Assembly (NCBI GenBank): GCA_024235615.1
Contig: JACKMB010000001.1
Location: 372,001-436,000 of the forward strand
Direction of reading: 5' to 3'
Source: Thauera sp.
GTDB lineage: Bacteria > Pseudomonadota > Gammaproteobacteria > Burkholderiales > Rhodocyclaceae
DNA length: 64,000 bases
The notes beneath the pieces were generated by a model. The model made no database searches. It was not told where the DNA came from and was given only the letters and a program-made list of their open reading frames with translations. The position numbers and the translations under genes are program-made. Shown here in pieces: positions 4,374 through 56,182 of the stretch (its first letter is position 1; each line of letters begins with the position of its first letter).

Positions 4374-5816
4374 ATGGCAGAAGAAAACGAGTTCTTTCGT
4401 CCGATCCGGGACATCGAGCAGCGCCGCGTGGTGAGCTGCGGCGCCGACGACGTGCTGGTCGACATCGTCGGCCGCATGCGCGAGATGAGCATCTCCTGCG
4501 TGGTCGTCGTCGAGGGCGAGCGCCCGACCGCGATCCTCACCGACCGCGACCTGCGCAACAAGGTGATCGCCGCCGGCCGCGACCCGGCGGGGCTCAGGGT
4601 GCGCGACGTGATGAGCGCGCCGGTGATCACCATCGGCGAGGAAGACGTACTCTACGAGGCGCTCTACCGCATGTCGCGCCACGGCATCCATCGCCTGGTG
4701 GTGGTCGACCGCAAGGGTGCGCTCGCCGGCATCGTCACCGTCACCGACCTGCTGCGCCTGCAGGCGCACTCGCCCCACCAGCTCGTGCTCGACATCGAGA
4801 AGGCGGACTCGATCGATGCACTGCGCGAGCTCCACCAGCGCATCCAGAAGCTGATCGTGCACCTCGCCGGCACCGGCATCGCGATACGCGACACCGTGAA
4901 GCTGATCGCCAACCTCAACGACCAGGTGCTGATCCGCCTCATCGACCTGCTGCGCCGCGACCGCTACCCGGACCTCACCGCGGATTTCGCCTTCGTGGTG
5001 ATGGGCAGCGAGGGGCGCGGCGAGCAGACGCTCTCCACCGACCAGGACAACGCGATCCTCTACGCCGACTCGGTGCAGGGCGAGGAGCTGGCCCGGCTCG
5101 AGGCCTTCTCCCACGAGCTCATCGAGGCCCTGATCTCGATCGGCGTGCCGCCCTGCCCCGGTGGCATCATGGCGCGCAATCCGGCCTGGCGGCGCAGCCT
5201 CACGGCCTGGAAGCGCGAGCTCACGCAGTGGCTGTCCGCACCCACGCCCGAGAACGTGATGACCGGCAGCATGTTCATGGACCTGCGCCCGCTCTACGGT
5301 CGGCGCGAGCTCGCCGACACCCTGCGCGAGCACGCGCTGCACTACATGAGCCACGAACAGGGCTTCCTCGTGCGCATGGCGCAGAACATGGTCAACTTCG
5401 CGCCGCCGCTGGGCTGGTTCGGCCGCATCAAGGTGGACAAGTCCGGCGAGCACCGCGGCGAGGTCGACCTCAAGAAGGCCGGGATCTTCGCCATCACCGA
5501 CGGCATCAAGGCGCTGGCGATGGAGGCGCGCCGGCTCGACGGCAGCACGCACGACCGCATGGAGGCGCTCATCGAGGCCGGCGTGCTCAAGGCGGAACAG
5601 GTCGCCGACCTGCGCGCAGCCTTCGACTTCCTCGTGCGGATGCGCCTGCGCGGCCAGGTCGAGGCCCTGCGCGCAGGGCGCAAGCCGGGCAACTACATCG
5701 CGCTCGACCAGCTGAACGCGATGCAGCAAGGCGAACTGCGCCTCGCCTTCGAGGGCGTCGCCAGCTTCCAGTCCTTCATCCAGCAGCACTTCAAGCTGCA
5801 GCTGCTGCGCAACTGA
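4374..5816 (+). CDS. CBS-domain DUF294 putative nucleotidyltransferase
   Basis: 480 residues. Two CBS domains lie at about residues 15-130. They are followed by a DUF294 nucleotidyltransferase-like domain with GSEGRGEQTLSTDQDNAI near residue 210, which matches the GS-X3-R-X-EQ-X3-TDQDN signature of GlnD-like enzymes, and then by a DUF294 C-terminal domain (about 320-475). No cyclic-nucleotide-binding domain precedes the CBS pair, unlike many relatives. The protein is soluble. CBS pairs usually bind adenine nucleotides, so energy-state sensing coupled to protein nucleotidylation is a family-level guess; no substrate is known. In other proteobacteria this family often sits beside a DnaQ-type exonuclease and an ActP-like symporter (from memory). 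Here those partners lie about 40 kb away (44470-48844), and this gene follows nirE by 52 bp. Confidence 0.85.
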   Translation: MAEENEFFRPIRDIEQRRVVSCGADDVLVDIVGRMREMSISCVVVVEGERPTAILTDRDLRNKVIAAGRDPAGLRVRDVMSAPVITIGEEDVLYEALYRMSRHGIHRLVVVDRKGALAGIVTVTDLLRLQAHSPHQLVLDIEKADSIDALRELHQRIQKLIVHLAGTGIAIRDTVKLIANLNDQVLIRLIDLLRRDRYPDLTADFAFVVMGSEGRGEQTLSTDQDNAILYADSVQGEELARLEAFSHELIEALISIGVPPCPGGIMARNPAWRRSLTAWKRELTQWLSAPTPENVMTGSMFMDLRPLYGRRELADTLREHALHYMSHEQGFLVRMAQNMVNFAPPLGWFGRIKVDKSGEHRGEVDLKKAGIFAITDGIKALAMEARRLDGSTHDRMEALIEAGVLKAEQVADLRAAFDFLVRMRLRGQVEALRAGRKPGNYIALDQLNAMQQGELRLAFEGVASFQSFIQQHFKLQLLRN

Positions 5817-41807: not shown

Positions 41808-44399
<2,592 letters not shown>

Positions 44400-44434
44400 G
44401 GGGACGATCCTCGGGATTCGTTGAACTAAACCCT

Positions 44435-44462
44435 ATGTGGGGCGCATCCGCCGCGCTTCAAG
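44435..44462 (-). promoter_or_regulatory. Sigma-32 heat-shock promoter of clpB
   Basis: On the minus strand CTTGAA (44462-44457) and CCCCACAT (44442-44435) are separated by 14 bp, matching the sigma-32 pattern CTTGAA-N13/15-CCCCATNT with one change. The element lies 36-63 bp upstream of the clpB start, in the 70-bp gap after the symporter stop. Confidence 0.85.
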
Positions 44463-44469
44463 TACCCGC

Positions 44470-46515
44470 TCAGTGATGCGGCCGGTTCTGACCTGGAATG
44501 TCGGGGTAGCGCACGTAGTCGACCAGGTCCTGGATCTCCTGAGGCGGCGGCTTGGTCAGCAGGCTGACCACGACGATGGTTGCGAAGCCGAGCGGCACGC
44601 CGAACACACCTGCCGAGATCGAGTTGATGTCGAACCAGGCGTTCACCATCGAGCCGCCGAAGAAGGGGTGGGTGTGCACCACGTAGAAGACCGTGACCGC
44701 CAGCCCCGCGAGCATGCCGGCGACCGCGCCGGGACGATTGGCGCGCTTCCAGAAGATGCCCAGCACGAGCGCCGGGAAGAAGGCCGAGCCGCCGATCGAG
44801 AACGCCAGGCCGACCATGAAGAGGATGTTGTCCGGCCGCATCGACGCAACCCAGGCCGCCACCACCGCCACCACCAGCAGCTGCGACTTGGAGATCACCA
44901 GCCGGCGGTGGGTCGTGGCCTGGGGATTGATCACCTTGTAGTAGAGGTCGTGCGACAACGCGTTCGAGATCGTCAGCAGCAGACCGTCGGCGGTGGACAG
45001 CGCGGCGGCCAGCCCCCCCGCCGCGACCAGGCCCGAGACGACGTAGGGCAGGCCGGCGATCTCCGGCGTGGCGAGCACGATCACGTCGGTATTGAGGCGC
45101 AGCTCGGCCAGTTGCAGGATGCCGTCGCCGTTGAGGTCCTCGATGCGCACCAGCCCCACCCTGCCCCAGGACGCCACCCAGTCGGGCAGGATCGCGATGC
45201 TCGAGCCGACCAGGTTGTTATAGACCTCCCACTTGGCGAACACGGCGTAGGCCGGCGCGGTGACGTAGAGCAGGAAGATGAAGAACAGCGACCACAGCAC
45301 CGAGCGACGCGCCTCCATGACGCCGGGCGTGGTGTAGTAGCGCATCAGGATGTGCGGCAGCGCCGCCGTACCCACCATGAGCACGAACATCAGCGCGAGG
45401 AAGTTGTTGCGCGCGGTGGCGGACTCGTCCGCGGTGGCGCCCGGATGCGCCTCGGCGTGGCGCGGCGGCGGTCGGGCGCGCTCGAGGGCCTCGGCGCGGG
45501 CGCGCTGCCAGGCCTCGCTTGCCTGCGCCGGCGTGCGCGGCAGGTCACGCAGGGCGCGCTCGGCAAGCGCGATGTCGCGCGCCGGCGCGTTGCCCAGGCG
45601 CATGCCGTTGAGCTCCTCGATCATGCGCCGGCGCTCGTCCTCGAGCGAGGCGGGCAGCGCAGCGATCTTGTCGGCGTAGTCTTGCGCGCGCGCGGTGTAG
45701 AGATCGCGCACCTCGCGCTCGGAGGGAGCCTCGAAGAGCGCGTCCTCACGCGCGCTGATCTGCTGCAGCACCGTCCCGTAGACCGCCTGCGGGATCGGAA
45801 TTCCGGTGAGCTTGTAGGACAGGATCACCACAGGCACCAGGTAGGCGATGATCAGGATCACGTACTGCGCCACCTGGGTCCAGGTCACCGCGCGCATGCC
45901 GCCGAGGAAGGAGCACACCAGGATGCCGGCCAGCCCGATGAAGAGTCCGATCTCGAACTCCACGCTGACGAAGCGGCTGGTCACCAGGCCGACGCCGTAG
46001 ATCTGCGCCACCAGATAGACGAAGCTCGCCAGCACCGCGGCGGAGAGGCCGACCAGGCGGGCGACGTTGCCCTGGTAGCGCGCGCCGAGGAAGTCCGGGA
46101 TGGTGTATTGGCCGAACTTGCGCAGGTAGGGCGCGAGCAGCAGGGCCACCAGCACGAAGCCGCCGGTCCAGCCGGTCACGAAGGCCAGGCCCTCGAAGCC
46201 GCTGAAGTACAAGGTTCCGGCCAGCCCGATGAAGGACGCCGCGCTCATCCAGTCGGCAGCGGTCGCCATGCCGTTGAACAGCGCCGGCACGCGACGCCCG
46301 GCGACGTAGTACTCGGAAACGTCGGAGGTGCGCGAGAGCACGCCGATGGTGGCGTAGATCGCGATCGTGACGAACAGGAAGACGTGGCCGATGAGCTGCT
46401 GCGAAAGCCCCATGCTCTCGCCGATCGCCAGCAGCACGACGAAGACCGCGAAGCCGAGGGTATAGATCCCGTAGTAGCGGCGCAGCTGGCGCGCGAAGCC
46501 GAGGTTGCGCCTCAA
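44470..46515 (-). CDS. Sodium/solute symporter of the ActP/VC_2705-like group with an EF-hand-like loop
   Basis: 681 residues from a TTG at 46515, preceded by GGAGAG 8 nt away and placed after the upstream stop; the longer in-frame extension to 46605 would overlap the exonuclease and looks spurious. Twelve or more helices and SSS signatures are present (GMATAADWMSAASFIGLAGTLYFSG; ALSTADGLLLTISNALSHDLYY). A charged cytoplasmic insert of about 120 residues (near 255-370, Arg/Glu/Ala-rich) separates helices, as in VC_2705-type relatives. Residues 460-471 read DLNGDGILQLAE, a full EF-hand calcium loop pattern. Acetate or a related carboxylate is the expected substrate, judged from acs and the CrbS-type kinase in the same cluster. 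Confidence 0.85.
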   Translation of the reverse strand: MRRNLGFARQLRRYYGIYTLGFAVFVVLLAIGESMGLSQQLIGHVFLFVTIAIYATIGVLSRTSDVSEYYVAGRRVPALFNGMATAADWMSAASFIGLAGTLYFSGFEGLAFVTGWTGGFVLVALLLAPYLRKFGQYTIPDFLGARYQGNVARLVGLSAAVLASFVYLVAQIYGVGLVTSRFVSVEFEIGLFIGLAGILVCSFLGGMRAVTWTQVAQYVILIIAYLVPVVILSYKLTGIPIPQAVYGTVLQQISAREDALFEAPSEREVRDLYTARAQDYADKIAALPASLEDERRRMIEELNGMRLGNAPARDIALAERALRDLPRTPAQASEAWQRARAEALERARPPPRHAEAHPGATADESATARNNFLALMFVLMVGTAALPHILMRYYTTPGVMEARRSVLWSLFFIFLLYVTAPAYAVFAKWEVYNNLVGSSIAILPDWVASWGRVGLVRIEDLNGDGILQLAELRLNTDVIVLATPEIAGLPYVVSGLVAAGGLAAALSTADGLLLTISNALSHDLYYKVINPQATTHRRLVISKSQLLVVAVVAAWVASMRPDNILFMVGLAFSIGGSAFFPALVLGIFWKRANRPGAVAGMLAGLAVTVFYVVHTHPFFGGSMVNAWFDINSISAGVFGVPLGFATIVVVSLLTKPPPQEIQDLVDYVRYPDIPGQNRPHH

Positions 46516-46552
46516 GGGGAACGCTCTCCGCTCGGCCCGCGCGCCCGGGTCA

Positions 46553-48844
46553 TCAGTACTTGATCCGCGCGTAGTAGGTCTTCTCGGCGGCCTCGCGCGC
46601 GTCACGCAGCGTGCGGATGCCCTTCTCGGCGAGCAGCGGGATCAGCTTGAGGAAGACCTCGGCGGTCACGATCGCGTCACCGAGCGCGGTATGACGCCCG
46701 ATGATGGTCAGCCCGAGGCGCTCGGCGATCGCCTCCAGGCGGTGCGACTCCTGGTTGGGGTGCACGACCGCCGACAGCAGCAGGGTGTCGATCACCGGGT
46801 GATCGAAGCGCAGCCCGGTCTGTTCTTCCTTGAGCTGCAGGAAGCGCATGTCGAAGGCGGCGTTGTGCGCGATCAGCACGGTGTCGGCGGAGAAGGCGTG
46901 GAAGGCGGGCAGCACCTTGTCGATGGTGGGCTGGCCGCGCAGCATCTCGGAGGTGATGCCGTGAATCTTCGCCGACTCGGGTGCGAGCGGACGCTCCGGG
47001 TCCACCAGCTGCTCGAAGGACTCGGCGCGCAGCAGCTTGCCGTTGAGGATGCGGGTCGCGCCGATCTGGATGATCTCGTCGCCCTGCGAGGGGTTGAGCC
47101 CGGTGGTCTCGGTGTCGAACACCGTGTAGCTGAGCTCGGAGAGCAGGCGGTCGTCGAGCGCGTGGGACTTCTCCGACCAGGCGAAGAGGTCGAAGTCGTA
47201 GTACTCGGGCCGGCTCTCGCCGCGCAGGTAGGTCTCGGCCTCGGCCTGCTCCTGGGGCGTCGCCGCCGGCAGCAGGATGCGGAAGAAGGCGCGGTGGCGC
47301 ACCTTCTCGCGCTCGAGCCACATCTCGCCGTCGTGGCGGTCGATCACGTCGCGTACGGTGAGCGGGCTGCTCTCGTCCTCGATCTTCATCGGCTCGAGCT
47401 CCCAGCTCATCACCGTCTCGGTGCTCATCGCCTGCCCGGACCAGATCAAATCGAGGTGCACCAGGCGACCGGCCGCGGTGAGCCGGAAGCGCACCTCGCG
47501 CACCTCGAACTCGTCCGACAGCCGGCTGGCAAGGTAGGTGATGGCCTGGATCAGCGAGAAGCTGTCGACCTTCACCCACAGCGTCTCGTCGACCTCCTCG
47601 AGCTTGGTGGGCAGGCCGATGCGGGCCTCGATGCGGCGCTGCGCCGCGGCGATCAGGTCGGCGCCGAACATTTCCTCGAGCGGCCAGCGCGCCTTCAGCG
47701 AATCGGCGAACTCGTTGGCGGTCTGGTCGAGGCGCTGGCTCATCGACTGCACCTCGTCGCGAACCACCTTGCGGAAGCGCGTGCGCATCTCGTCGGGGAG
47801 GTCCTCGAATTCCAGCATGTCGGCCGCTGCGCGCACGTTGGCGAGCGAGGCGCGGCTGCCCTCGGTGAGGTTGTGCAGCATCTGGTCGCGGCGCGACTCG
47901 GTCTCGAAGTTGCGCGTGATGTTGTCGAGCATGAGGATGAAGCCGGTGAGCGTGCGCTCCGGGGCGCCCTCCGCAGCCGCGGCTGCCGCTGTCGCCGGCA
48001 AGGTCTCGTCCGCCGCGCCGACCACACCCGCGTCACCCTGCTCCGCGCCCTGTCCGCCCGCGGTCTCGCCCTCCGCCGCGGCCGCAAGGGCCGGCGCCGC
48101 CAGCGACAGCACCGGCGCCATCTGCACGCGCAGCAGCTGGCCTGCCCGGGTGGTGGTGACGAAGTTGGCCTGCGCCTGCGTGGCGCCGCGGCGCAGGCGC
48201 TGCTGGATGGTGTCGAGCGCGTGCGCGATCAGGTTGCGCTCGAATACGCCGTAGATCGAACGCCCGAGGCCGATCAGCTCGCCGCCGCCGGCCACGCCCG
48301 GGGCCTCGGAGAGCGCGCGGAACTGCGCGCGCGCACGGTTGTTGTAGAGCAGCACGCGGCCGTCGAGGTTGCACACCACGACGCTCTGGGTGAGCTCGGA
48401 CATCAACGCGGCGAGGCGGTCCTTCTCGAGTTCGACCGAGGCCTTGGCGCGCGCGATCTGCGCCTCCACGTCCTCCAGCAGCGCATCGCGCTGGCTGGCG
48501 AGCTCGTTGGCGGCGACCGCGAGTTGCTGAACCTCGGGCGGCCCCTCGGGCTGCACGCGGAAGCCGCGGTTGGCGCCGAGCATCAGGCGCAGGTTCTCCG
48601 ACATGCGCAGCAGCCCCTGTACGTACTGGCGGAAGAGCACCCGCACCACGCCCACGCCGGCCGCGAAGCCCATCGCGGTGAGCAGCGTGCCGAGCGTGAG
48701 GTGAGGCGACAGCACCTTCACCAGCATTTCGCGCGCCTCGCCTGCGGTCTCGACCCAGACGATCAGCGCAGTGAGCAGGAAGGGTCCGGTCATCAGCAGG
48801 AACAGCACGACGACCGCGAGCATGAATCGCGTACGTGCCTGCAT
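46553..48844 (-). CDS. Membrane PAS-pseudokinase fused to a DEDDh 3'-5' exonuclease
   Basis: 763 residues. Two membrane helices (about 8-30 and 52-72) are followed by a HAMP-like/coiled-coil stretch (75-145) and a PAS-like domain (about 145-310) broken by an Ala/Gly-rich insert (248-295). A kinase-like region follows (315-530), but no HELR-type H-box His is visible at the expected helix (LTEGSRASLANVRAAADML). The ATPase part lacks clear DXGXG and GXGXG boxes, so it looks inactive. Residues 570-763 form a complete DnaQ-type exonuclease: Asp577 and Glu579 in FDTETTGLNP, Asp665 in HNAAFDMRF, His718 and Asp723 in HTALGD. Such exonucleases remove 3' nucleotides from DNA or RNA. It starts 3 nt after the receiver gene and ends 37 bp before the symporter. 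The substrate is unknown. Confidence 0.88.
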   Translation of the reverse strand: MQARTRFMLAVVVLFLLMTGPFLLTALIVWVETAGEAREMLVKVLSPHLTLGTLLTAMGFAAGVGVVRVLFRQYVQGLLRMSENLRLMLGANRGFRVQPEGPPEVQQLAVAANELASQRDALLEDVEAQIARAKASVELEKDRLAALMSELTQSVVVCNLDGRVLLYNNRARAQFRALSEAPGVAGGGELIGLGRSIYGVFERNLIAHALDTIQQRLRRGATQAQANFVTTTRAGQLLRVQMAPVLSLAAPALAAAAEGETAGGQGAEQGDAGVVGAADETLPATAAAAAAEGAPERTLTGFILMLDNITRNFETESRRDQMLHNLTEGSRASLANVRAAADMLEFEDLPDEMRTRFRKVVRDEVQSMSQRLDQTANEFADSLKARWPLEEMFGADLIAAAQRRIEARIGLPTKLEEVDETLWVKVDSFSLIQAITYLASRLSDEFEVREVRFRLTAAGRLVHLDLIWSGQAMSTETVMSWELEPMKIEDESSPLTVRDVIDRHDGEMWLEREKVRHRAFFRILLPAATPQEQAEAETYLRGESRPEYYDFDLFAWSEKSHALDDRLLSELSYTVFDTETTGLNPSQGDEIIQIGATRILNGKLLRAESFEQLVDPERPLAPESAKIHGITSEMLRGQPTIDKVLPAFHAFSADTVLIAHNAAFDMRFLQLKEEQTGLRFDHPVIDTLLLSAVVHPNQESHRLEAIAERLGLTIIGRHTALGDAIVTAEVFLKLIPLLAEKGIRTLRDAREAAEKTYYARIKY

Positions 48845-48847
48845 GGC

Positions 48848-49216
48848 TCAGTGCTCCAGCAGGCTGCGCACCTTGTCCACCAGCTCGCGGGTGGAGAAGG
48901 GCTTGGTCATGTAGGCGTCGGCACCGAGCGCCAGGCCCTTGGCGACCTCGGTGTCGCGGCCCTTGGCGGTGAGCATCAGGATCCGGATCCCCGCCATCTC
49001 GGGATCGGAGCGGATCTCCTGGCAGACCTCGAAGCCGCTCTTTTTCGGCATCATGACGTCGAGCAGCACCAGATCGGGCCGCGAGGCGCGGATCCGGCGC
49101 ACGGCCTCCTCGCCGTCGTTGGCCACCTCGACCTGATAGCCCTCGCGCTTCATGAGGAACTCCAGCGAAATGACGATGTTCTGTTCGTCGTCGGCAATCA
49201 GTACTTTCTTGTCCAT
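48848..49216 (-). CDS. Receiver-only response regulator
   Basis: 122 residues, a single CheY-like domain with no output domain. The acidic pair (ADDE), the phospho-acceptor Asp in LVLLDVMMPKKSG, the Thr in MLTAKG and the Lys in TKPFS are all present, so it should be phosphorylated normally. GGAGGAG precedes the ATG. It is encoded 30 bp after the symporter-kinase and 3 bp before the exonuclease fusion, so these two are the likely partner pair. The CrbR regulator of the comparable Vibrio/Pseudomonas system carries a LuxR-type DNA-binding domain; this protein does not. Confidence 0.95.
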   Translation of the reverse strand: MDKKVLIADDEQNIVISLEFLMKREGYQVEVANDGEEAVRRIRASRPDLVLLDVMMPKKSGFEVCQEIRSDPEMAGIRILMLTAKGRDTEVAKGLALGADAYMTKPFSTRELVDKVRSLLEH

Positions 49217-49246
49217 CAGCGTCTCCTCCCCGCCCGATATTCTATG

Positions 49247-51988
49247 TCATCCCTCGCCCGCCGCCGACTTCAGCGGCAGCTCGAAGGAGAATGTCGCGCC
49301 CTCGCCCGGCACGGACTCCAGCCACAGCCGACCGCCGAAGTGCTCGACGATCTGGCGGCTGATCGGCAGGCCCAGGCCGGTGCCCTGCGGCCGCGAGCGC
49401 TCGTCCCCGCCCTGGCGGAACTTCTCGAATACAACCGGCTGCTGGGCCGGCTCGATCCCCGGTCCGTTGTCCTTCACCGCGACGCGACAGCGCTCGCCGT
49501 CGCAGCTCAGCGTCACGTCCACCCGACCGCTGCCCGTGGGCACGAACTTCGCCGCGTTCGACAGCAGGTTGAGCATCACCTGCAGCAGGCGGTCGTGATC
49601 GGCACGCAGCGTCGGCACCGACTCCGGCAGGTGCAGGTGCAGCTCGGCGCCGCGGTCCCGGAAGAGCTGCAGCGTGGCGTCGCCGGAGTGGCGCACGAGC
49701 TCGCACAGGTCGATGTCGGTGTTGTGCCACTCGGCGTGGCCGGATTCGATCTTGGCCATGTCGAGCACCTGGTTCACCAGGCGCGACAGGCGCACCGTCT
49801 CCGACACGATGATGCCCAGGAAGCGCTGGCGATCCTCGACGTCGATGTCGGGATCGTCGAGCATCATCTCGGAGAGCGCGCGGATCGAGGTCAGCGGCGT
49901 GCGCAGCTCGTGCGTCACCGAGGACATGAAGTCGTCCTTCAGGCGGTCGAGCTCCTGCAGGCGCTCGTTGGCGGCGCGCAGCTCGGCGGTCGCGGCCTCG
50001 AGCGCGCGCGACTTCTCCTCGAGCTTGTGCGAGTAGGCGCGGACCTGCGAGGCCTCGTCGAGGATGTCCATGACCTCGCCGAGCCCGAGCGGCTCCGCCT
50101 GCACCACGGTCGACACCATCACCCGCGCCGAGGCGCTGCCGATGGCGCCGGCGAGAAGGGTCTCGGCGAAGTGGACCAGCTCGGGATCGGCCTTGAGCTC
50201 GGAGACCCGCTGCAGGCCATGCGAGCGCGCGTAGGCGCCGAAGGCCTCCTCGGTGCGGCGCTGGCCGAGGAAGCGCGCCACCAGCGGCACCAGCTCGCCG
50301 GCCTCGGCGCCGGTGCGCCAGAAGCTGGCCGGCGGCGCGTCACCACGCCGGAACACATCGACGAAGAGCGCGCCCTGGGTGGCCTCCGGCCCGGTCGGCA
50401 CGCGCAGCATCGACACCGCGACGTAGCAGCCGATGTTGGCGAGGAGGCTCCAGAACAGCGCGTGGCTGATGTTGTCCAGGCCGGTGAGCCCGAAGAGCTG
50501 CTCGGGCCTGAGCCAGCCTAGGCCGAGCACGCCGTGCTCGAGGAAGCCCGGATCGAGCCAGCCCGACTTGGCGAACGACGGCAGCAGCAGCGTGTAGACC
50601 CACACCGCGAAGCCCGCGAGCAGGCCGGCGAGCGCGCCCTCGCGGGTGCCGCCACGCCAATACATGCCGCCGATCACCACCGGGGCGAACTGCGCCACCG
50701 CGGCGAAGCTGATGAGGCCGATGCTGACCAGCGCGTAGGCCTCGCCGGCGAGGCGGAAGTAGAGATAGCCGAGCAGCAGCAGCACCACGATCGCGCCGCG
50801 GCGGATGCCGAGCAGGAGCCCGGTGAGGTCGCGCTCGCGCGCGAGGTCGAGCCGCCGGCTGCGCAGCAGCATCGGCATCACGAGGTCGTTGCACACCATC
50901 GTGGACAGCGCGATCGCCTCCACGATCACCATGCCGGTGGCTGCGGACAGGCCGCCGATGAACACGAGCAAGGCGAGCGCATTCTGCCCATGCGCGAGCG
51001 GCAGGGTCAGCACGAAGGTGTCCGGGTCCACCGTGCCGCTGCCAAAATGCAGCAGCCCGCCGATCGCGACCGGGATCACGAAGAGGTTGATCGCCAGCAG
51101 GTAGGCGGGAAAGACCCAGGTGGCGCGGCGCAGGTGCTGCTCGTTGACGTTCTCCACCACCGCGATCTGGAACTGCCGCGGCAGGAAGATGATCGACAGC
51201 ATCGCCAGCAGGACGTGGGCGAACCAGCCGCCGTAGCCGAGCCGGCCGGCGCCGTCGAAGGCGAGCAGGCGTTGCAGCTCGGGCACCGCCGCGGCGCGCG
51301 CGTAGAGGTCGCCGAAGCCGTCGTAGAGCCAGTAGGTGACGTAGACGCCGACCGCGAGGAAGGCCAGCAGCTTGACGACCGACTCGAAGGCGATCGCCGC
51401 CACCATGCCCTCGTGGCGCTCGGTGGTGTCGAGGTGGCGGGTGCCGAACAGCACGGTGAAGGCGGCGAGCGCGAGCGCGATGTAGAGCGTGCCGTCCTGC
51501 CACCAGCCGGACTGGCTCTCGATGCGGAACAGCGTGTCGTGCTCGCCCACCAGCAGCGCGTAGCCGCTGGAGATCGCCTTCAGCTGCAGCGCGATGTAGG
51601 GCACGATGCCCACCACCGCGATCAGCGTGACCAGCCCGCCGAGCAGGTGGCTCTTGCCGTAGCGCGAGGCGACGAAGTCGGCGATCGAGGTGACCCGGTA
51701 GCTGCGCGCGATGCGGATCATCTTGAGCACGACCAGCCAGGCCAGGGTGAGGCCCAGCGTGGGCCCGAGATAGGTCGGCAGGAACCACGGCCCGCCCGAG
51801 GCGGCGCGACCGACGCTGCCGAAATAGGTCCACGCGGTGCAATACACCGCGAGCGATAGACTGAAAACCCAGGGATTGTCGATGACCGAGCGCCCGGCGT
51901 CCGCGCGCCGGTCGCCGAAGTAGGCCACCGCGAACAGCAGCAGCAGGTAGGCGAACGAGGCGCCGACGATCAGCCAGCCCGGCAGCAT
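49247..51988 (-). CDS. Symporter-linked hybrid sensor histidine kinase (CrbS type: SSS-STAC-HisKA-HATPase)
   Basis: 913 residues from the ATG at 51988, which has GGAGG 5 nt upstream. Residues 1-525 form a full sodium/solute-symporter module of about 13 helices (VYCTAWTYFGSVGRAASGG; GLSAATGMVIVEAIALSTMVCNDLV). A STAC-like linker (about 560-650; HFAETLLAGAIGSASARVMVSTVV) and a coiled coil lead to the kinase. The H-box FMSSVTHELRTPLTSI holds His693, and the ATPase domain has the N-box MLNLLSNAAKF, DNGPGIE and GTGLGLPIS, all intact. There is no receiver domain. CrbS proteins sense acetate-related signals and control acs, and acs is the gene at the head of this cluster. Confidence 0.92.
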   Translation of the reverse strand: MLPGWLIVGASFAYLLLLFAVAYFGDRRADAGRSVIDNPWVFSLSLAVYCTAWTYFGSVGRAASGGPWFLPTYLGPTLGLTLAWLVVLKMIRIARSYRVTSIADFVASRYGKSHLLGGLVTLIAVVGIVPYIALQLKAISSGYALLVGEHDTLFRIESQSGWWQDGTLYIALALAAFTVLFGTRHLDTTERHEGMVAAIAFESVVKLLAFLAVGVYVTYWLYDGFGDLYARAAAVPELQRLLAFDGAGRLGYGGWFAHVLLAMLSIIFLPRQFQIAVVENVNEQHLRRATWVFPAYLLAINLFVIPVAIGGLLHFGSGTVDPDTFVLTLPLAHGQNALALLVFIGGLSAATGMVIVEAIALSTMVCNDLVMPMLLRSRRLDLARERDLTGLLLGIRRGAIVVLLLLGYLYFRLAGEAYALVSIGLISFAAVAQFAPVVIGGMYWRGGTREGALAGLLAGFAVWVYTLLLPSFAKSGWLDPGFLEHGVLGLGWLRPEQLFGLTGLDNISHALFWSLLANIGCYVAVSMLRVPTGPEATQGALFVDVFRRGDAPPASFWRTGAEAGELVPLVARFLGQRRTEEAFGAYARSHGLQRVSELKADPELVHFAETLLAGAIGSASARVMVSTVVQAEPLGLGEVMDILDEASQVRAYSHKLEEKSRALEAATAELRAANERLQELDRLKDDFMSSVTHELRTPLTSIRALSEMMLDDPDIDVEDRQRFLGIIVSETVRLSRLVNQVLDMAKIESGHAEWHNTDIDLCELVRHSGDATLQLFRDRGAELHLHLPESVPTLRADHDRLLQVMLNLLSNAAKFVPTGSGRVDVTLSCDGERCRVAVKDNGPGIEPAQQPVVFEKFRQGGDERSRPQGTGLGLPISRQIVEHFGGRLWLESVPGEGATFSFELPLKSAAGEG

Positions 51989-52001
51989 CACGACCTCCGC
52001 A

Positions 52002-52199
52002 TCAGCGCGCCCCGCGCTCGACGATCCACGCCACGACCAGGATCAGCGCGATCCACACCGCGAACAGATAGACGTGGAGCAGCGGCAGCCCGAGGACGGT
52101 CTGCGGGCGGTCGAACAGGGACAGAATGGGATAGTTCAGCAACACCAGGCCGGCGATGAACACGGCCACCAGGCGCTGCCCGGCCAGACCCTTGCGCAT
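52002..52199 (-). CDS. Small two-helix membrane protein of the symporter-kinase cluster
   Basis: 65 residues from the ATG at 52199, which has GGGAG 7 nt upstream. A basic start (MRKGLAGQR) is followed by a helix (VAVFIAGLVLLNYPILSLF), a short loop (DRPQTVLGLPL) and a second helix (LHVYLFAVWIALILVVAWIV) ending in ERGAR. Small proteins of this shape are often encoded directly before CrbS-type kinases or ActP-like symporters, and an accessory role for the adjacent transporter is assumed. It ends 13 bp before the kinase start. Confidence 0.8.
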   Translation of the reverse strand: MRKGLAGQRLVAVFIAGLVLLNYPILSLFDRPQTVLGLPLLHVYLFAVWIALILVVAWIVERGAR

Positions 52200-52363
52200 C
52201 CTGTCGCTCCCATGAAACGAGCCACGGCAAACGAAATGGCGCAGCACCGCCCTGCTCTTTGCGGCAGGGTCGGCGCGACGCACGAACAGGGGCACGCCTT
52301 GCGCGTACCCGGTCTCCCCCCGGCACCGGCTCGCTGGCCGGCTTCCTCCTGTCGTTCAGGAGC

Positions 52364-52386
52364 GGCCGGGCGCGGGGCGCCCGGCC
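52364..52386 (-). other. GC-rich hairpin just after acs
   Basis: GGCCGGGCG (52364-52372) pairs with CGCCCGGCC (52378-52386), a 9-bp stem with a 5-nt loop, 9 bp after the acs stop. No U-tract follows leftward, so it may protect the acs 3' end or set the ratio of acs to downstream signalling genes. A second stem, CTCCTG/CAGGAG, lies next to it at about 52345-52362. The remaining roughly 150 bp up to the small membrane gene shows nothing clear. Confidence 0.5.
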
Positions 52387-52395
52387 TGCACTGCA

Positions 52396-54360
52396 TCAGC
52401 CCTTGAGCTGCTCGAGGATGTGCGGGTTCTCGAGCGTCGAGGTGTCCTGGGTGACATCCTCGCCCTTGGCGAGCTGGCGCAGCAGGCGGCGCATGATCTT
52501 GCCGGAGCGGGTCTTGGGCAGGTTCTCGCCGAAGCGGATGTCCTTCGGCTTGGCGATCGGCCCGATCTCGTGGCCGACCCAGTTCTGCAGTTCCTTGACC
52601 ACCTTGGCGGCTTCCTCGCCGGTGGGACGCGCGCCCTTCAGCACCACGAAGGCAACGATCGCCTCGCCCGTGAGGTCGTCCGGGCGGCCGACCACGGCGG
52701 CCTCGGCCACCTTCTCGTGCGCGACCAGGGCCGACTCGATCTCCATCGTGCCCATGCGGTGGCCGGAGACGTTGAGCACGTCGTCGATGCGGCCGGTGAT
52801 GGTGAAGTAGCCGGTCTCGGCGTCGCGGATGGCGCCGTCGCCCGCGAGGTAGAGCTTGCCCTTGAAGTCCTCGGGGTAGTAGGTCTTCTTGAAGCGGTCG
52901 GGGTCGCCCCACACCGTGCGGATCATCGACGGCCACGGCTTGGTGACCACCAGGATGCCGCCCTGGCCCCAGGGCACCTCGGTGCCGGTCTCATCGACCA
53001 CCGCGGCCATGATGCCCGGGAAGGGCAGCGTGCACGAACCCGGGATCATCGGGGTCGCACCCGGCATCGGGGTGATCATGTGCGCGCCGGTCTCGGTCTG
53101 CCAGAAGGTATCGACGATCGGGCAGCGTCCGCCGCCGACGTTCTCGTAGTACCACTCCCAGGCCGCCGGGTTGATCGGCTCGCCGACCGAGCCGAGGATG
53201 CGCAGCGAGGACAGGTCGTACTGCTTCGGATGCACGGCCGGGTTGTTGTCGGCGGCCTTGATCAACGAGCGGATCGCGGTCGGCGCGGTGTAGAAGATGC
53301 TGACCTTGTGGTCCTGGATCATCTTCCAGAAGCGGCCGGCGTCCGGATAGGTCGGCACGCCTTCGAACACGATCTCGGTCGCGCCGCAGGCGAGCGGACC
53401 GTAGGTGATGTAGGTGTGACCGGTGACCCAGCCGATGTCGGCGGTGCACCAGTAGACGTCGTTCGGCTTGATGTCGAAGGTGTACTTCATCGACAGCACG
53501 GCCTGCAGCAGGTAGCCGCCCGAGGAGTGCTGCACGCCCTTCGGCTTGCCGGTGGAGCCCGAGGTGTAGAGGATGAACAGCGGGTGCTCGGCCTCGACCC
53601 ACTCCGGCTCGCAGGTCTCGGACTGGTTGGCGACCGCGTCGTGGTACCAGGTGTCGCGACCGGCGACCATGGCGACGTCGGCACCGGTGCGCTTGACGAC
53701 GATGACGTTCTTGACCGAGTCGCAGCCGCCCAGCGACAGCGCCTCGTCGGCGATCGGCTTGAGCGGCAGCGCCTTGCCGCCGCGGAACTGGCCGTCGGAG
53801 GTGATCACGGCCACCGCGCCGGCGTCCTCGATGCGGTCGCGCAGGGCCTGGGCGGAGAAGCCGCCGAACACGATCGAGTGGGTCGCGCCGATGCGGGCGC
53901 AGGCCTGCATCGCGACCACGCCTTCGATCGACATCGGCAGGTAGATGATGACGCGATCGCCCTTCTTGACGCCCATGCCGCGCAGGGCGTTGGCGAACTT
54001 GCTGACGCGGGCGAGCAGGTCCTTGTAGGTGATGCGGATGACTTCGCCGCCGTCGGCTTCGAAGATCAGCGCGACCTTGTCGCCGAGGCCGTTATTGACG
54101 TTGCGGTCGAGGCAGTTGTAGGAGACGTTGAGCTTGCCGTCTGCGAACCACTTGAAGAAAGGCGCGTTCGACTGGTCGAGGACCTGGGTGAAGGGCTCCT
54201 TCCAGTCCAGCAACTCCTTGGCGCGGCGGCCCCAGTAACCCTCGTAGTCGTCCTCGGCCTCCTTGCACAGCGCGCGATAACCGTCCATGCCGGACACCGC
54301 TGCGTTCTTGACCATCTCTTCCGAGGGGTTGTAAATGCGGACTTGTTGCTCGTTGGACAT
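52396..54360 (-). CDS. acs: Acetyl-CoA synthetase (AMP-forming)
   Basis: 654 residues from the ATG at 54360, with AGGAG 8 nt upstream; a GTG two codons earlier is possible. ANL-superfamily motifs are present: [15 protein letters not shown] (phosphate loop), [27 protein letters not shown] and the C-terminal [14 protein letters not shown], whose Lys is the classic acetylation site that switches the enzyme off. It turns acetate, CoA and ATP into acetyl-CoA. It leads a leftward cluster with the symporter-kinase, receiver, exonuclease fusion and symporter, so it is probably their control target or partner. Confidence 0.98.
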
Positions 54361-54379
54361 GCTCACCTCTCCTCAACTG

Positions 54380-54393
54380 TTCAAATGGTTGAA
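54380..54393. promoter_or_regulatory. Small palindrome upstream of acs
   Basis: TTCAA-ATGG-TTGAA lies 20 bp upstream of the acs ATG. A related TTGAACC occurs at about 54416-54422. It could be an operator or a leader-RNA element, but no matching factor is identified. The rest of the 289-bp acs-fumA gap shows no clear promoter. Confidence 0.3.
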
Positions 54394-54649
54394 GCTACCC
54401 GTTGCGGGTGGGCTGGTTGAACCCAGCCTTTGATTTGCCCGAACGCCGACGCCCCCTTGCGGGCCCTCCCCGTCCGGACACTCGGATGCCGTTCGAAACG
54501 CCGGCATTAGAGAACAGCTATCTTACACAGGACTTACACCGCCTCGCCAGCGACGGCCGGCGGGGCCGGTGGTAGAATCCGGCGCCACTCCGGGCCTCGC
54601 GGCCCGGTCGCGTCATTCTGCCCCCATGTCATTCCGGAGACCAAGCGCC

Positions 54650-56182
54650 ATGACGATCATTCGCCAGGAAGACCTCATCCAGTCGATCGCGGATGCCTTC
54701 CAGTACATCAGCTACTACCACCCGCTCGACTACATCCAGGCGCTCGGCGAGGCCTACGCGCGCGAGGAGAGCCCGGCCGCGAAGGACGCGATCGCGCAGA
54801 TCCTGACCAACTCGCGCATGGCCGCCGAAGGCCACCGCCCGATCTGCCAGGATACCGGCATCGCGGTGGTCTTTCTCAAGGTCGGCATGAACGTGCAGTG
54901 GGACGCCAAGATGAGCGTCCAGGAGATGATCGACGAGGGCGTGCGCCGCGCCTACAACCACCCCGACAACAAGCTGCGCGCCTCGGTGCTGCTCGACCCG
55001 GCCGGCAAACGCCAGAACAGCAAGGACAACACCCCGGCGGTGGTGCACTACGAGATCGTCGCGGGCGACGACGTCGAGGTCATCTGCGCGGCCAAGGGCG
55101 GCGGCTCCGAGAACAAGACCAAGATGGTCATGCTCAACCCCTCCGACTCGATCGTCGACTGGGTGCTCAAGACCGTGCCGACCATGGGCGCGGGCTGGTG
55201 TCCGCCGGGCATCCTCGGCATCGGCATCGGCGGCACCCCGGAGAAGGCGATGCTGCTGGCCAAGGAATCGCTGATGGAGCCCGTCAACATCCACGAGCTG
55301 CGCGAGAAGGCCGCCTCCGGCGCCGCACTCAGCCGCGTCGAGGAGCTCCGCCTCGAGCTCATGGACAAGGTCAACGCGCTCGGCATCGGCGCCCAGGGCC
55401 TGGGCGGCCTCACCACCGTGCTCGACGTCAAGATCATGGACTATCCGACCCACGCCGCCTCGCTGCCGGTGGCGATGATCCCCAACTGCGCCGCCACCCG
55501 CCACGTGCACTTCCACCTCGACGGCTCGGGCCCCGCGCACCTGCCGACCCCTAAGCTCGAGGACTGGCCGCAGGTCACCTGGAAGGCCGACACCAACGTC
55601 GCCACCCGCGTGAACCTCGACACCCTCACCAAGGAAGAGGTCGCCTCCTGGAAGCCGGGCCAGATCCTGCTCCTCAACGGCAGGATGCTCACCGGCCGCG
55701 ACGCCGCGCACAAGCGCATCGCCGACATGCTGGAGAGGGGCGAGAAGCTGCCGGTCGACTTCACCAACCGCGTGATCTACTACGTCGGCCCGGTCGACCC
55801 GGTGCGCGACGAGGTCGTCGGTCCCGCCGGCCCCACCACCGCCACGCGCATGGACAAGTTCACCCGCATGATGCTGGAGAAGACCGGCCTCATCTCGATG
55901 ATCGGCAAGTCCGAGCGCGGTCCGGTGGCCATCGAGGCGATCAAGGACAACCAGTCGGCCTACCTGATGGCGGTCGGGGGCGCAGCCTATCTGGTGTCGA
56001 AGGCGATCAAGGAAGCCAAGGTCGTCGGCTTCGCCGACCTCGGCATGGAAGCGATCTACGAATTCACCGTGCAGGACATGCCGGTGACGGTCGCGGTCGA
56101 CGCCAAGGGCACCAGCGTGCACAACACCGGGCCGAAGGAATGGCAGGCGAAGATCGGCAAGATCCCGGTCGCCGTCGCCTGA
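54650..56182 (+). CDS. fumA: Class I fumarate hydratase ([4Fe-4S])
   Basis: 510 residues from the ATG at 54650, with GGAGA upstream. The alpha-type part carries Cys in GHRPICQDTGIAVVF, in GAGWCPPGILGIGIGG and in MIPNCAATRHVHFH, the three ligands of the labile [4Fe-4S] cluster. The beta-type part has GQILLLNGRMLTGRDAAHKR and later YYVGPVDPVRDEVVGPAGPTTATRMD. The single chain resembles E. coli FumA/FumB and converts fumarate to malate. The oxygen-sensitive cluster suits low-oxygen growth; no class II fumC is in this window. It diverges from acs. Confidence 0.97.
   Translation: MTIIRQEDLIQSIADAFQYISYYHPLDYIQALGEAYAREESPAAKDAIAQILTNSRMAAEGHRPICQDTGIAVVFLKVGMNVQWDAKMSVQEMIDEGVRRAYNHPDNKLRASVLLDPAGKRQNSKDNTPAVVHYEIVAGDDVEVICAAKGGGSENKTKMVMLNPSDSIVDWVLKTVPTMGAGWCPPGILGIGIGGTPEKAMLLAKESLMEPVNIHELREKAASGAALSRVEELRLELMDKVNALGIGAQGLGGLTTVLDVKIMDYPTHAASLPVAMIPNCAATRHVHFHLDGSGPAHLPTPKLEDWPQVTWKADTNVATRVNLDTLTKEEVASWKPGQILLLNGRMLTGRDAAHKRIADMLERGEKLPVDFTNRVIYYVGPVDPVRDEVVGPAGPTTATRMDKFTRMMLEKTGLISMIGKSERGPVAIEAIKDNQSAYLMAVGGAAYLVSKAIKEAKVVGFADLGMEAIYEFTVQDMPVTVAVDAKGTSVHNTGPKEWQAKIGKIPVAVA

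Follow-up and report, generated by a model that had tools for sequence, protein, structure and literature searches.

The closest described systems to the locus analysed here involve acetate-linked two-component signaling, a dead histidine kinase and an exonuclease of organic-acid metabolism. In the CrbS/CrbR (MxtR/ErdR) system the carboxy-terminal receiver of CrbS is not required for acs transcription (PMC5436829). The RNase_T exonuclease PP_0353 of Pseudomonas putida is under transcriptional control by MxtR/ErdR, and a deletion mutant grows more slowly on pyruvate; the authors guess at a role in mRNA decay (PMC9927547). The DivL pseudokinase binds DivK~P via the usual docking surface, and the DivL PAS domains tune phospho-specificity (PMC4211667). 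Here we describe a gene cluster in a 64,000-nucleotide stretch of DNA from Thauera sp. (contig JACKMB010000001.1, positions 372,001 to 436,000; hereafter the window) that encodes an SLC5-STAC sensor kinase (KIN), a receiver-only response regulator (REC) and a membrane-bound fusion of a PAS domain, a pseudokinase and a DEDDh exonuclease (EXOF). KIN, REC and EXOF are a conserved unit whose linkage is well beyond chance, and we propose, at a probability of roughly 60%, that they form a two-component system in which EXOF, through its dead kinase core, is the docking site of phosphorylated REC (REC~P), and REC~P thereby gates the nuclease.

The genes of the cluster were identified by Pfam and NCBIfam profile searches of open reading frames (ORFs), and all lie on the minus strand. 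KIN (49247-51991; 914 aa) has the layout SLC5-STAC-HisKA-HATPase_c and carries the phospho-acceptor motif THELRTPL in its ORF; its match to the Pfam SSF model is weak (E = 0.0015, below the cut-off), and no Pfam model matched for STAC, for a PAS domain or for a carboxy-terminal receiver. REC (48848-49216; 122 aa) begins 30 nt after KIN and matches Response_reg only. The phosphorylation site D53 is invariant among 36 aligned sequences, and with a phospho-Asp present and an output domain absent REC is a single-domain response regulator, as the first-pass annotation of this DNA had claimed in describing a regulator that lacks a DNA-binding output. EXOF (46553-48844; 763 aa) follows after 3 nt, the spacing given earlier.

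EXOF is predicted to be a pseudokinase with a histidine-kinase fold and an intact set of DEDDh residues. Two amino-terminal transmembrane (TM) helices and a linker helix are followed by a PAS domain (~141-250), a pseudo-DHp (~309-379), a pseudo-CA (~386-535) and the exonuclease (~566-745). Pfam detects the nuclease strongly (RNase_T, E = 1e-37) and the PAS domain weakly (PAS_4, below cut-off), and among 40 EXOF homologues it reports RNase_T in all 40, PAS_4 in 19 and HisKA in one. A profile built from 40 EXOFs matches the VicK-like histidine kinase 4i5s at positions 254-498 (E = 4e-9) and 4u7n weakly (E = 8.5e-4), as well as the PolC, DnaQ and DinG exonucleases. The AlphaFold2 model has two long amino-terminal helices, a PAS-like domain, DHp helices at 309-344 and 351-379, a CA-like domain and the nuclease. 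Foldseek searches with this model rank a WalK model first and 4i5s second, and also return ThkA with a response regulator (3a0r), a NifL-NifA entry and PolC/DnaQ exonucleases. TM-scores of the kinase matches are low (0.15-0.18 of the query) and their rmsd across the complete alignment is large, as expected of domains with flexible joints; the nuclease matches superpose well.

The position that should hold the acceptor histidine is occupied, in 95 aligned EXOFs, by Glu in 68 (counting L064, in which the pseudokinase region is lost), Asp in 20 and Gln in 6, with one gap; histidine is absent from all 94 rows that have a residue there. ATP-binding motifs are likewise lacking, as judged by eye. The catalytic residues D577, E579 and D665 are kept in 94 of the 95 rows and H718 and D723 in 93, the remainder being gaps. 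The same combination of dead acceptor and conserved nuclease residues is seen by eye in other families (among the rows listed) and in Paracoccus denitrificans. The domain architecture proposed in the first-pass annotation thus holds. Two variants, L064 (G100) and L071 (G102), lack the pseudokinase region and keep the TM segments, PAS domain and nuclease.

The linkage of the three genes was followed in several genome samples. In a sample of 150 genomes of the window's order, KIN occurs in 21. REC lies directly after KIN in the window and in 19 of the 20 loci from other genomes; the exception is G022, where a REC-LuxR protein (L061 7853-8488) directly follows KIN and REC is ~5 kb away. EXOF follows REC in the window and in 10 of these 20 loci. 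A second sample of 399 genomes of the order, in which KIN was called at E<=1e-100, contains EXOF in 29 genomes, KIN in 53 and both in 26 (Fisher p = 6e-23, uncorrected for kinship); going by the listed coordinates, the two genes are adjacent in 24 of the 26, with G083 unlinked and G170 having them on different contigs. EXOF without KIN is found in G020, G150 and G270. Among 80 EXOF loci from named genomes (the best 80 of 573 relatives, the closest of which include Thauera proteins with 79-95% identity in the best segment), a REC of at least 50% identity is just upstream of EXOF in 69, at a distance of -4 to 466 nt (median 22), with 21 pairs overlapping or abutting. Of the 11 loci without an upstream REC, two are cut by contig ends (L116, L151) and nine lack it (seven Accumulibacter, L186 and L188). 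KIN is present at 68 of the 80 loci, a small membrane protein gene at 60, acs at 33 and a DUF294 gene within 3.5 kb downstream at 31, all four counts being depressed by contig ends. The order and co-occurrence check called for by the first-pass annotation therefore returns a recurring arrangement, and the absence of receiver-fusion linkage in related genomes that would have counted against it is not what we see.

The unit extends beyond the order. In a phylum sample of 398 genomes, KIN-like proteins (E<=1e-60) are found in 175 and fall into two length classes: a short class (~840-950 aa), which aligns with KIN along nearly its entire length, and a long class (~1150-1340 aa), which aligns mostly over SLC5 and STAC only. 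Twenty short-type regions, hand-picked for family spread (19 from the phylum sample, one from the order sample), and ten long-type regions were fetched. The short-type regions comprise KIN-REC-EXOF once (L219), the permuted order REC-EXOF-KIN nine times, one locus cut by a contig end, REC-KIN eight times and KIN-REC once (L238), the last two classes being without EXOF within the fetched stretch. The permuted order thus accounts for nine of the ten EXOF loci of other families, the tenth being the one cut by a contig end. The nuclease of permuted loci is 47-61% identical to that of the window, acs was not detected at them, and the KIN of L228 carries in-frame stops. On plasmid 1 of P. denitrificans PD1222, a harmless laboratory strain, DUF294, a small ORF, KIN, REC and EXOF (PDEN_RS25395-RS25415) follow one another, successive genes overlapping by 4-11 bases; neither acs nor an acetate symporter is annotated alongside; P. 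methylovorus has the same five-gene order. Sixteen plasmid records carry EXOF, 14 from Paracoccus and two from Cupriavidus.

A co-evolution analysis suggests which part of EXOF is tied to its partners. Each EXOF domain was scored for its agreement with KIN-positive homologues and regressed on the score of the protein's own nuclease to give a z value; five truncated or absent rows (L116, L151, L053, L072 and L189) were excluded. The genomes of six EXOFs (G020, G150, G270, G102, G771 and G772) contain no KIN, and a REC profile finds only generic receivers in these genomes (best 98.9-106.1 bits per genome, as compared with 97.9 bits in the KIN-negative G224 and 169.6-209.6 bits in G764, G030, G083 and G140). 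For L070, L250, L249, L071, L186 and L188, respectively, the first run gave z values of -5.6, -6.0, -5.7, -4.3 (region missing), -2.8 and -3.2 for pseudo-DHp alpha1; -2.5, -2.8, -0.8, -2.5, 1.0 and 0.7 for PAS; and -2.3, -2.7, -3.5, -2.3, 0.0 and -0.3 for pseudo-CA. In a stricter rerun, which kept these six, nine unlinked EXOFs and L064 outside the reference of 86 and skipped close kin (nuclease identity >=85%), alpha1 of the six reached -6.7, -6.9, -6.9, -8.7, -3.7 and -4.0, and PAS ranged from -3.0 to 0.9. The nine EXOFs that are unlinked from KIN and REC of the same genome (seven Accumulibacter, G083 and the second copy of G030) have alpha1 z values of -0.1 to 0.7 in the first run, where they were within the reference, and of -0.7 to 0.1 in the rerun. 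Of all parts of EXOF, the pseudo-DHp helices follow the presence of REC and KIN most closely, and this pattern of conservation points to a contact of the pseudo-DHp with REC (or KIN).

The converse test, on REC, agrees weakly. REC diverges more from the consensus in ten EXOF-less loci and L064 (p = 9e-7). Averaged over pairs, REC identity is 57% where SLC5 identity is 75% and EXOF is absent (45 pairs), and 63% where SLC5 identity is 70% and EXOF is present (78 pairs, from other families), which would fit a relaxed REC where EXOF is absent.

Under the proposed mechanism, the SLC5-STAC part of KIN would sense or carry a short-chain acid, acetate being the leading guess, and KIN would phosphorylate REC. 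REC~P would then dock on membrane-bound EXOF at its pseudo-DHp helices, in the manner of a receiver on a kinase, and this docking, read together with the PAS domain, would switch or position the carboxy-terminal exonuclease in one direction or the other, since EXOF cannot autophosphorylate. The nuclease would trim the 3' end of a nucleic acid, and its PolC/DnaQ-like fold is compatible with either DNA or RNA. A regulator without an output domain has to act by binding, for example by docking on a histidine-kinase fold. We favor docking of REC~P on EXOF because EXOF has a dead kinase fold, its docking helices track REC and KIN, and DivL provides a precedent.

Several observations weigh against this mechanism. 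In the second sample 27 of the 53 KIN genomes have no EXOF, as searched with EXOF residues 1-560, a query that can overlook variants lacking the pseudokinase; G176 and G267, two of these 27 genomes, carry CrbS-size hybrids. In G100, KIN and REC lie beside an EXOF (L064) that has lost its pseudokinase region and has an alpha1 z of -9.1, and one protein of the 86 in the KIN-linked reference reaches -4.4. The six decayed cases represent about four lineages. At the permuted loci the pseudo-DHp is only 24-32% identical to that of the window, with no BLAST match in L226. The greater divergence of REC upon loss of EXOF is present in family f6 and absent or small inside families f36 and f11. Confidence in the AlphaFold2 model is modest (pLDDT 73.8, pTM 0.42). 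The path from kinase to receiver to exonuclease sketched in the first-pass annotation gains from the decay of the pseudo-DHp in the six genomes without KIN and REC, and has to be narrowed in that the exonuclease is not the sole output.

One alternative, which we consider unlikely, is that KIN and EXOF pair through their DHp parts, with EXOF acting as a co-sensor or brake of KIN, REC serving as phosphate partner or sink and the nuclease answering the kinase directly. KIN and EXOF are both encoded in the same operon and lie in the membrane, the EXOF pseudo-DHp matches the KIN DHp at 28-41% identity (tblastn), and the six decayed EXOFs miss both KIN and REC, so their decay would fit a KIN-EXOF dimer too. 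However, it is REC that is the immediate upstream neighbor of EXOF in both gene orders, KIN lying downstream in the permuted one. Also, L184 (Noviherbaspirillum denitrificans, G773) carries REC-EXOF, lacks a KIN ahead of REC and has kept its pseudo-DHp conserved (z 0.9), which favors REC over KIN as the partner, although this case is a single genome. At E<=1e-60, G773 shows no KIN that includes a kinase core, its only match being an SLC5-STAC stretch (KIN residues 2-635) in a 1067-aa frame; another kinase may feed REC there.

It is also doubtful that REC signals mainly to an unlinked partner, with EXOF as a passenger or as a target of the acetate regulon in the manner of PP_0353. The 27 EXOF-less KIN genomes argue in its favor, as the exonuclease cannot be the sole output and REC must have another role in them; so does the membership of PP_0353 in the MxtR/ErdR regulon, with its pyruvate phenotype (PMC9927547). 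DNA-binding proteins also occur beside the pair: at L230 and L235 a REC-KIN pair without EXOF adjoins a regulator of the ScfR family (short-chain acyl-CoA), a possible alternative output, and in G022 the REC-LuxR protein directly follows KIN. However, retention of a dead kinase core, with decay in the genomes that have neither KIN nor REC, is not what one expects of a passenger, and PP_0353 is stand-alone. A stand-alone exonuclease-like protein (no Pfam match) is present at L054 too, and can be dismissed as a member of the EXOF lineage, given that it is 29% identical to the EXOF nuclease and coexists with EXOF in L054. In the genome of the window (4.01 Mb, 14 contigs) no ScfR was found, which removes that family as a missing output, and no close CrbR. 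Taken together, the nuclease as output of the system, claimed earlier, is backed by the conserved unit with its pseudokinase-nuclease and qualified by the EXOF-less genomes, the ScfR neighbors and G100; REC probably has additional partners besides EXOF.

The relation to CrbS was examined through the long-type loci. KIN residues 2 to ~657 align at ~41-47% with long, CrbS-size hybrid kinases (28-40% over the STAC stretch in the ten long-type loci), and most of these alignments stop near residue 660, ahead of the kinase core. The long hybrids are called CrbS-type by their length and by a LuxR-type neighbor in 4 of 10, no named CrbS being part of the comparison; a REC-LuxR protein adjoins the kinase in L239, L241, L244 and L245. 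Kinases of the short (~840-950 aa) and the CrbS-size (~1180-1340 aa) type coexist in at least 11 genomes (G447, G482, G606, G632, G683, G692, G705, G729, G732, G750 and G761), and in G750 both loci were read (L224 short, L244 long). Because of this co-occurrence, the nuclease module and CrbS/CrbR are taken as parallel systems, with the short KINs as a lineage apart. An intact CrbS-like kinase, as first annotated, is therefore apt for the SLC5-STAC amino terminus and not for the remainder, which lacks PAS and receiver and has a different kinase core; the idea of a CrbS/CrbR system with its regulator replaced does not survive.

CrbR itself was not found in the genome of the window or in the cluster. 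The best candidate shows 34-39% identity to four CrbR-like proteins, against 51-58% among those four, which rules it out as an orthologue, and it adjoins an apparent kinase of its own (by eye). A CrbR elsewhere in the genome, which would have spoken against the earlier model, is thus absent as far as tested. A receiver gene on the opposite strand near the module also fails as a hidden CrbR: the L047 copy scanned is of OmpR type (Response_reg + Trans_reg_C). It is accordingly highly improbable that REC is the split-off receiver of a CrbS-type hybrid whose work is done by a CrbR-like LuxR regulator elsewhere, since, despite the dispensability of the CrbS receiver for acs transcription (PMC5436829), the two kinase lengths coexist, the alignments end before the kinase core and the best CrbR candidate is distant.

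The SLC5-STAC sensor occurs in other combinations as well. In Azoarcus sp. KH32C (NC_020548.1 202152-204050) an EAL-annotated protein contains an SLC5-STAC stretch resembling that of KIN (55% identity), apparently the same sensor joined to a c-di-GMP enzyme. Frames of ~1065 aa at L265 (1501-4704, G773) and in a second copy in G336 match KIN residues 2-635 or 4-635, and the carboxy-terminal end of the L265 frame reads as an EAL domain by eye.

The remaining genes of the window's cluster complete the leftward block of six genes recognized at the outset. The acetyl-CoA synthetase gene acs (52396-54366, minus strand; 656 aa, TIGR02188 above cut-off) is ~200 nt upstream of a small membrane protein gene (52002-52199, minus strand; 65 aa counted from an internal Met). 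The latter protein matched no Pfam or NCBIfam family and probably serves the SLC5 domain of KIN as an accessory subunit; its gene ends 10 nt before KIN. Downstream, a sodium/solute symporter gene (44470-46605, minus strand, true start perhaps further in) overlaps EXOF by 53 nt in its longest ORF. The tight spacing reported earlier thus applies from the small membrane gene to the symporter (gaps of 3-30 nt and one overlap) and not to acs. The symporter, called ActP-like in the first-pass annotation, belongs to the VC_2705 family (TIGR03648, 779 bits against a cut-off of 321) and is not an ActP equivalog, the ActP model scoring 169 bits against a cut-off of 1099. A sigma-70 consensus scan of 44200-54700, a weak test, gave no promoter-like site. 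The cluster is flanked by a divergent fumarase gene (54569-56182, plus strand) and by a gene that reads as clpB by eye (41808-44399, minus strand).

In the 150-genome sample, acs is close upstream of KIN on the same strand (70-84% identical) in the window and in 14 of the 20 other loci. Acetate as the signal, another claim of the first-pass annotation, leans solely on this linkage, and acs is missing in Paracoccus and undetected in the permuted loci; acetate is the leading guess.

In many relatives, unlike in the window, a DUF294 gene adjoins EXOF. At L054 (951-3583), L127, L132, L133 and others, genes for a stand-alone exonuclease-like protein, a cNMP/CBS/DUF294 protein and a symporter come after KIN-REC-EXOF, so that these loci hold two exonuclease lineages within one acetate cluster. 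The genome of the window has two CBS/DUF294 nucleotidyltransferase-like proteins, both encoded away from the cluster: one at 4374-5816 (plus strand), with its GSEGR..EQ...DQD motif intact, and a second (G000:C2, L106 6843-8741), motif intact, which is 59% identical to the acetate-cluster copy of L054. The nucleotidyltransferase pattern GS.GR.EQ...DQD, which we take to be the active site, is intact in all eight DUF294 proteins read and suggests a writer/eraser reading. In this speculative and rather improbable scheme, REC would gate the membrane-tethered 3'-5' exonuclease by way of the dead kinase, and the DUF294 nucleotidyltransferase that is often encoded in the same operon would be its antagonist, restoring on an RNA or a nucleotidylated protein what EXOF takes off; the supply of short-chain acids would thus be matched to their activation independently of transcription and of any DNA-binding regulator.

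If the proposed mechanism is right, the effector of this two-component system would be an enzyme that cuts RNA or DNA, and EXOF would be a further natural pseudo-histidine-kinase serving as a response-regulator receptor. Many Rhodocyclales and Burkholderiales carry the module, as do Paracoccus and other Pseudomonadota. The mechanism would further provide a handle on the exonuclease and CBS/DUF294 genes of organic-acid regulons (PP_0353 and PP_0354), whose role the authors of PMC9927547 leave unexplained. Each part of the module is of a known kind and the novelty is in the wiring; no published description of the KIN-REC-EXOF architecture was found in a search that covered few subscription papers, nor in the accessible portions of PMC9927547, PMC5715377, PMC5436829, PMC9100948 and PMC4211667.

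Comparison with known systems places the module between several of them. It shares with CrbS/CrbR (MxtR/ErdR) the SLC5-STAC sensor kinase, the linkage to acs, and an exonuclease and CBS/DUF294 gene in the neighborhood or regulon, but its kinase lacks PAS and receiver domains and has another kinase core, the partner is receiver-only, and no LuxR-type regulator lies in the cluster. PP_0353 resembles EXOF in its RNase_T fold, in its operon with the CBS-domain gene PP_0354 and in its tie to organic-acid use, whereas it is stand-alone and transcriptionally controlled, and EXOF is membrane-bound, pseudokinase-fused and receiver-linked. Against the PolC/DnaQ DEDDh exonucleases, EXOF has the same fold and catalytic residues, no polymerase part and a fused signaling module. 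Relative to the WalK/VicK kinases, it keeps the order TM-linker-PAS-DHp-CA but is devoid of the phospho-acceptor and, by eye, of ATP-binding motifs, and ends in an exonuclease. The DivL-DivK pair of Caulobacter likewise joins a dead, PAS-bearing histidine kinase to a single-domain regulator, and the reception of the regulator that is shown for DivL is what we propose for EXOF; the two differ in the acceptor position (Tyr in DivL, Glu, Asp or Gln in EXOF), in the enzyme that EXOF itself carries, and in belonging to unrelated pathways.

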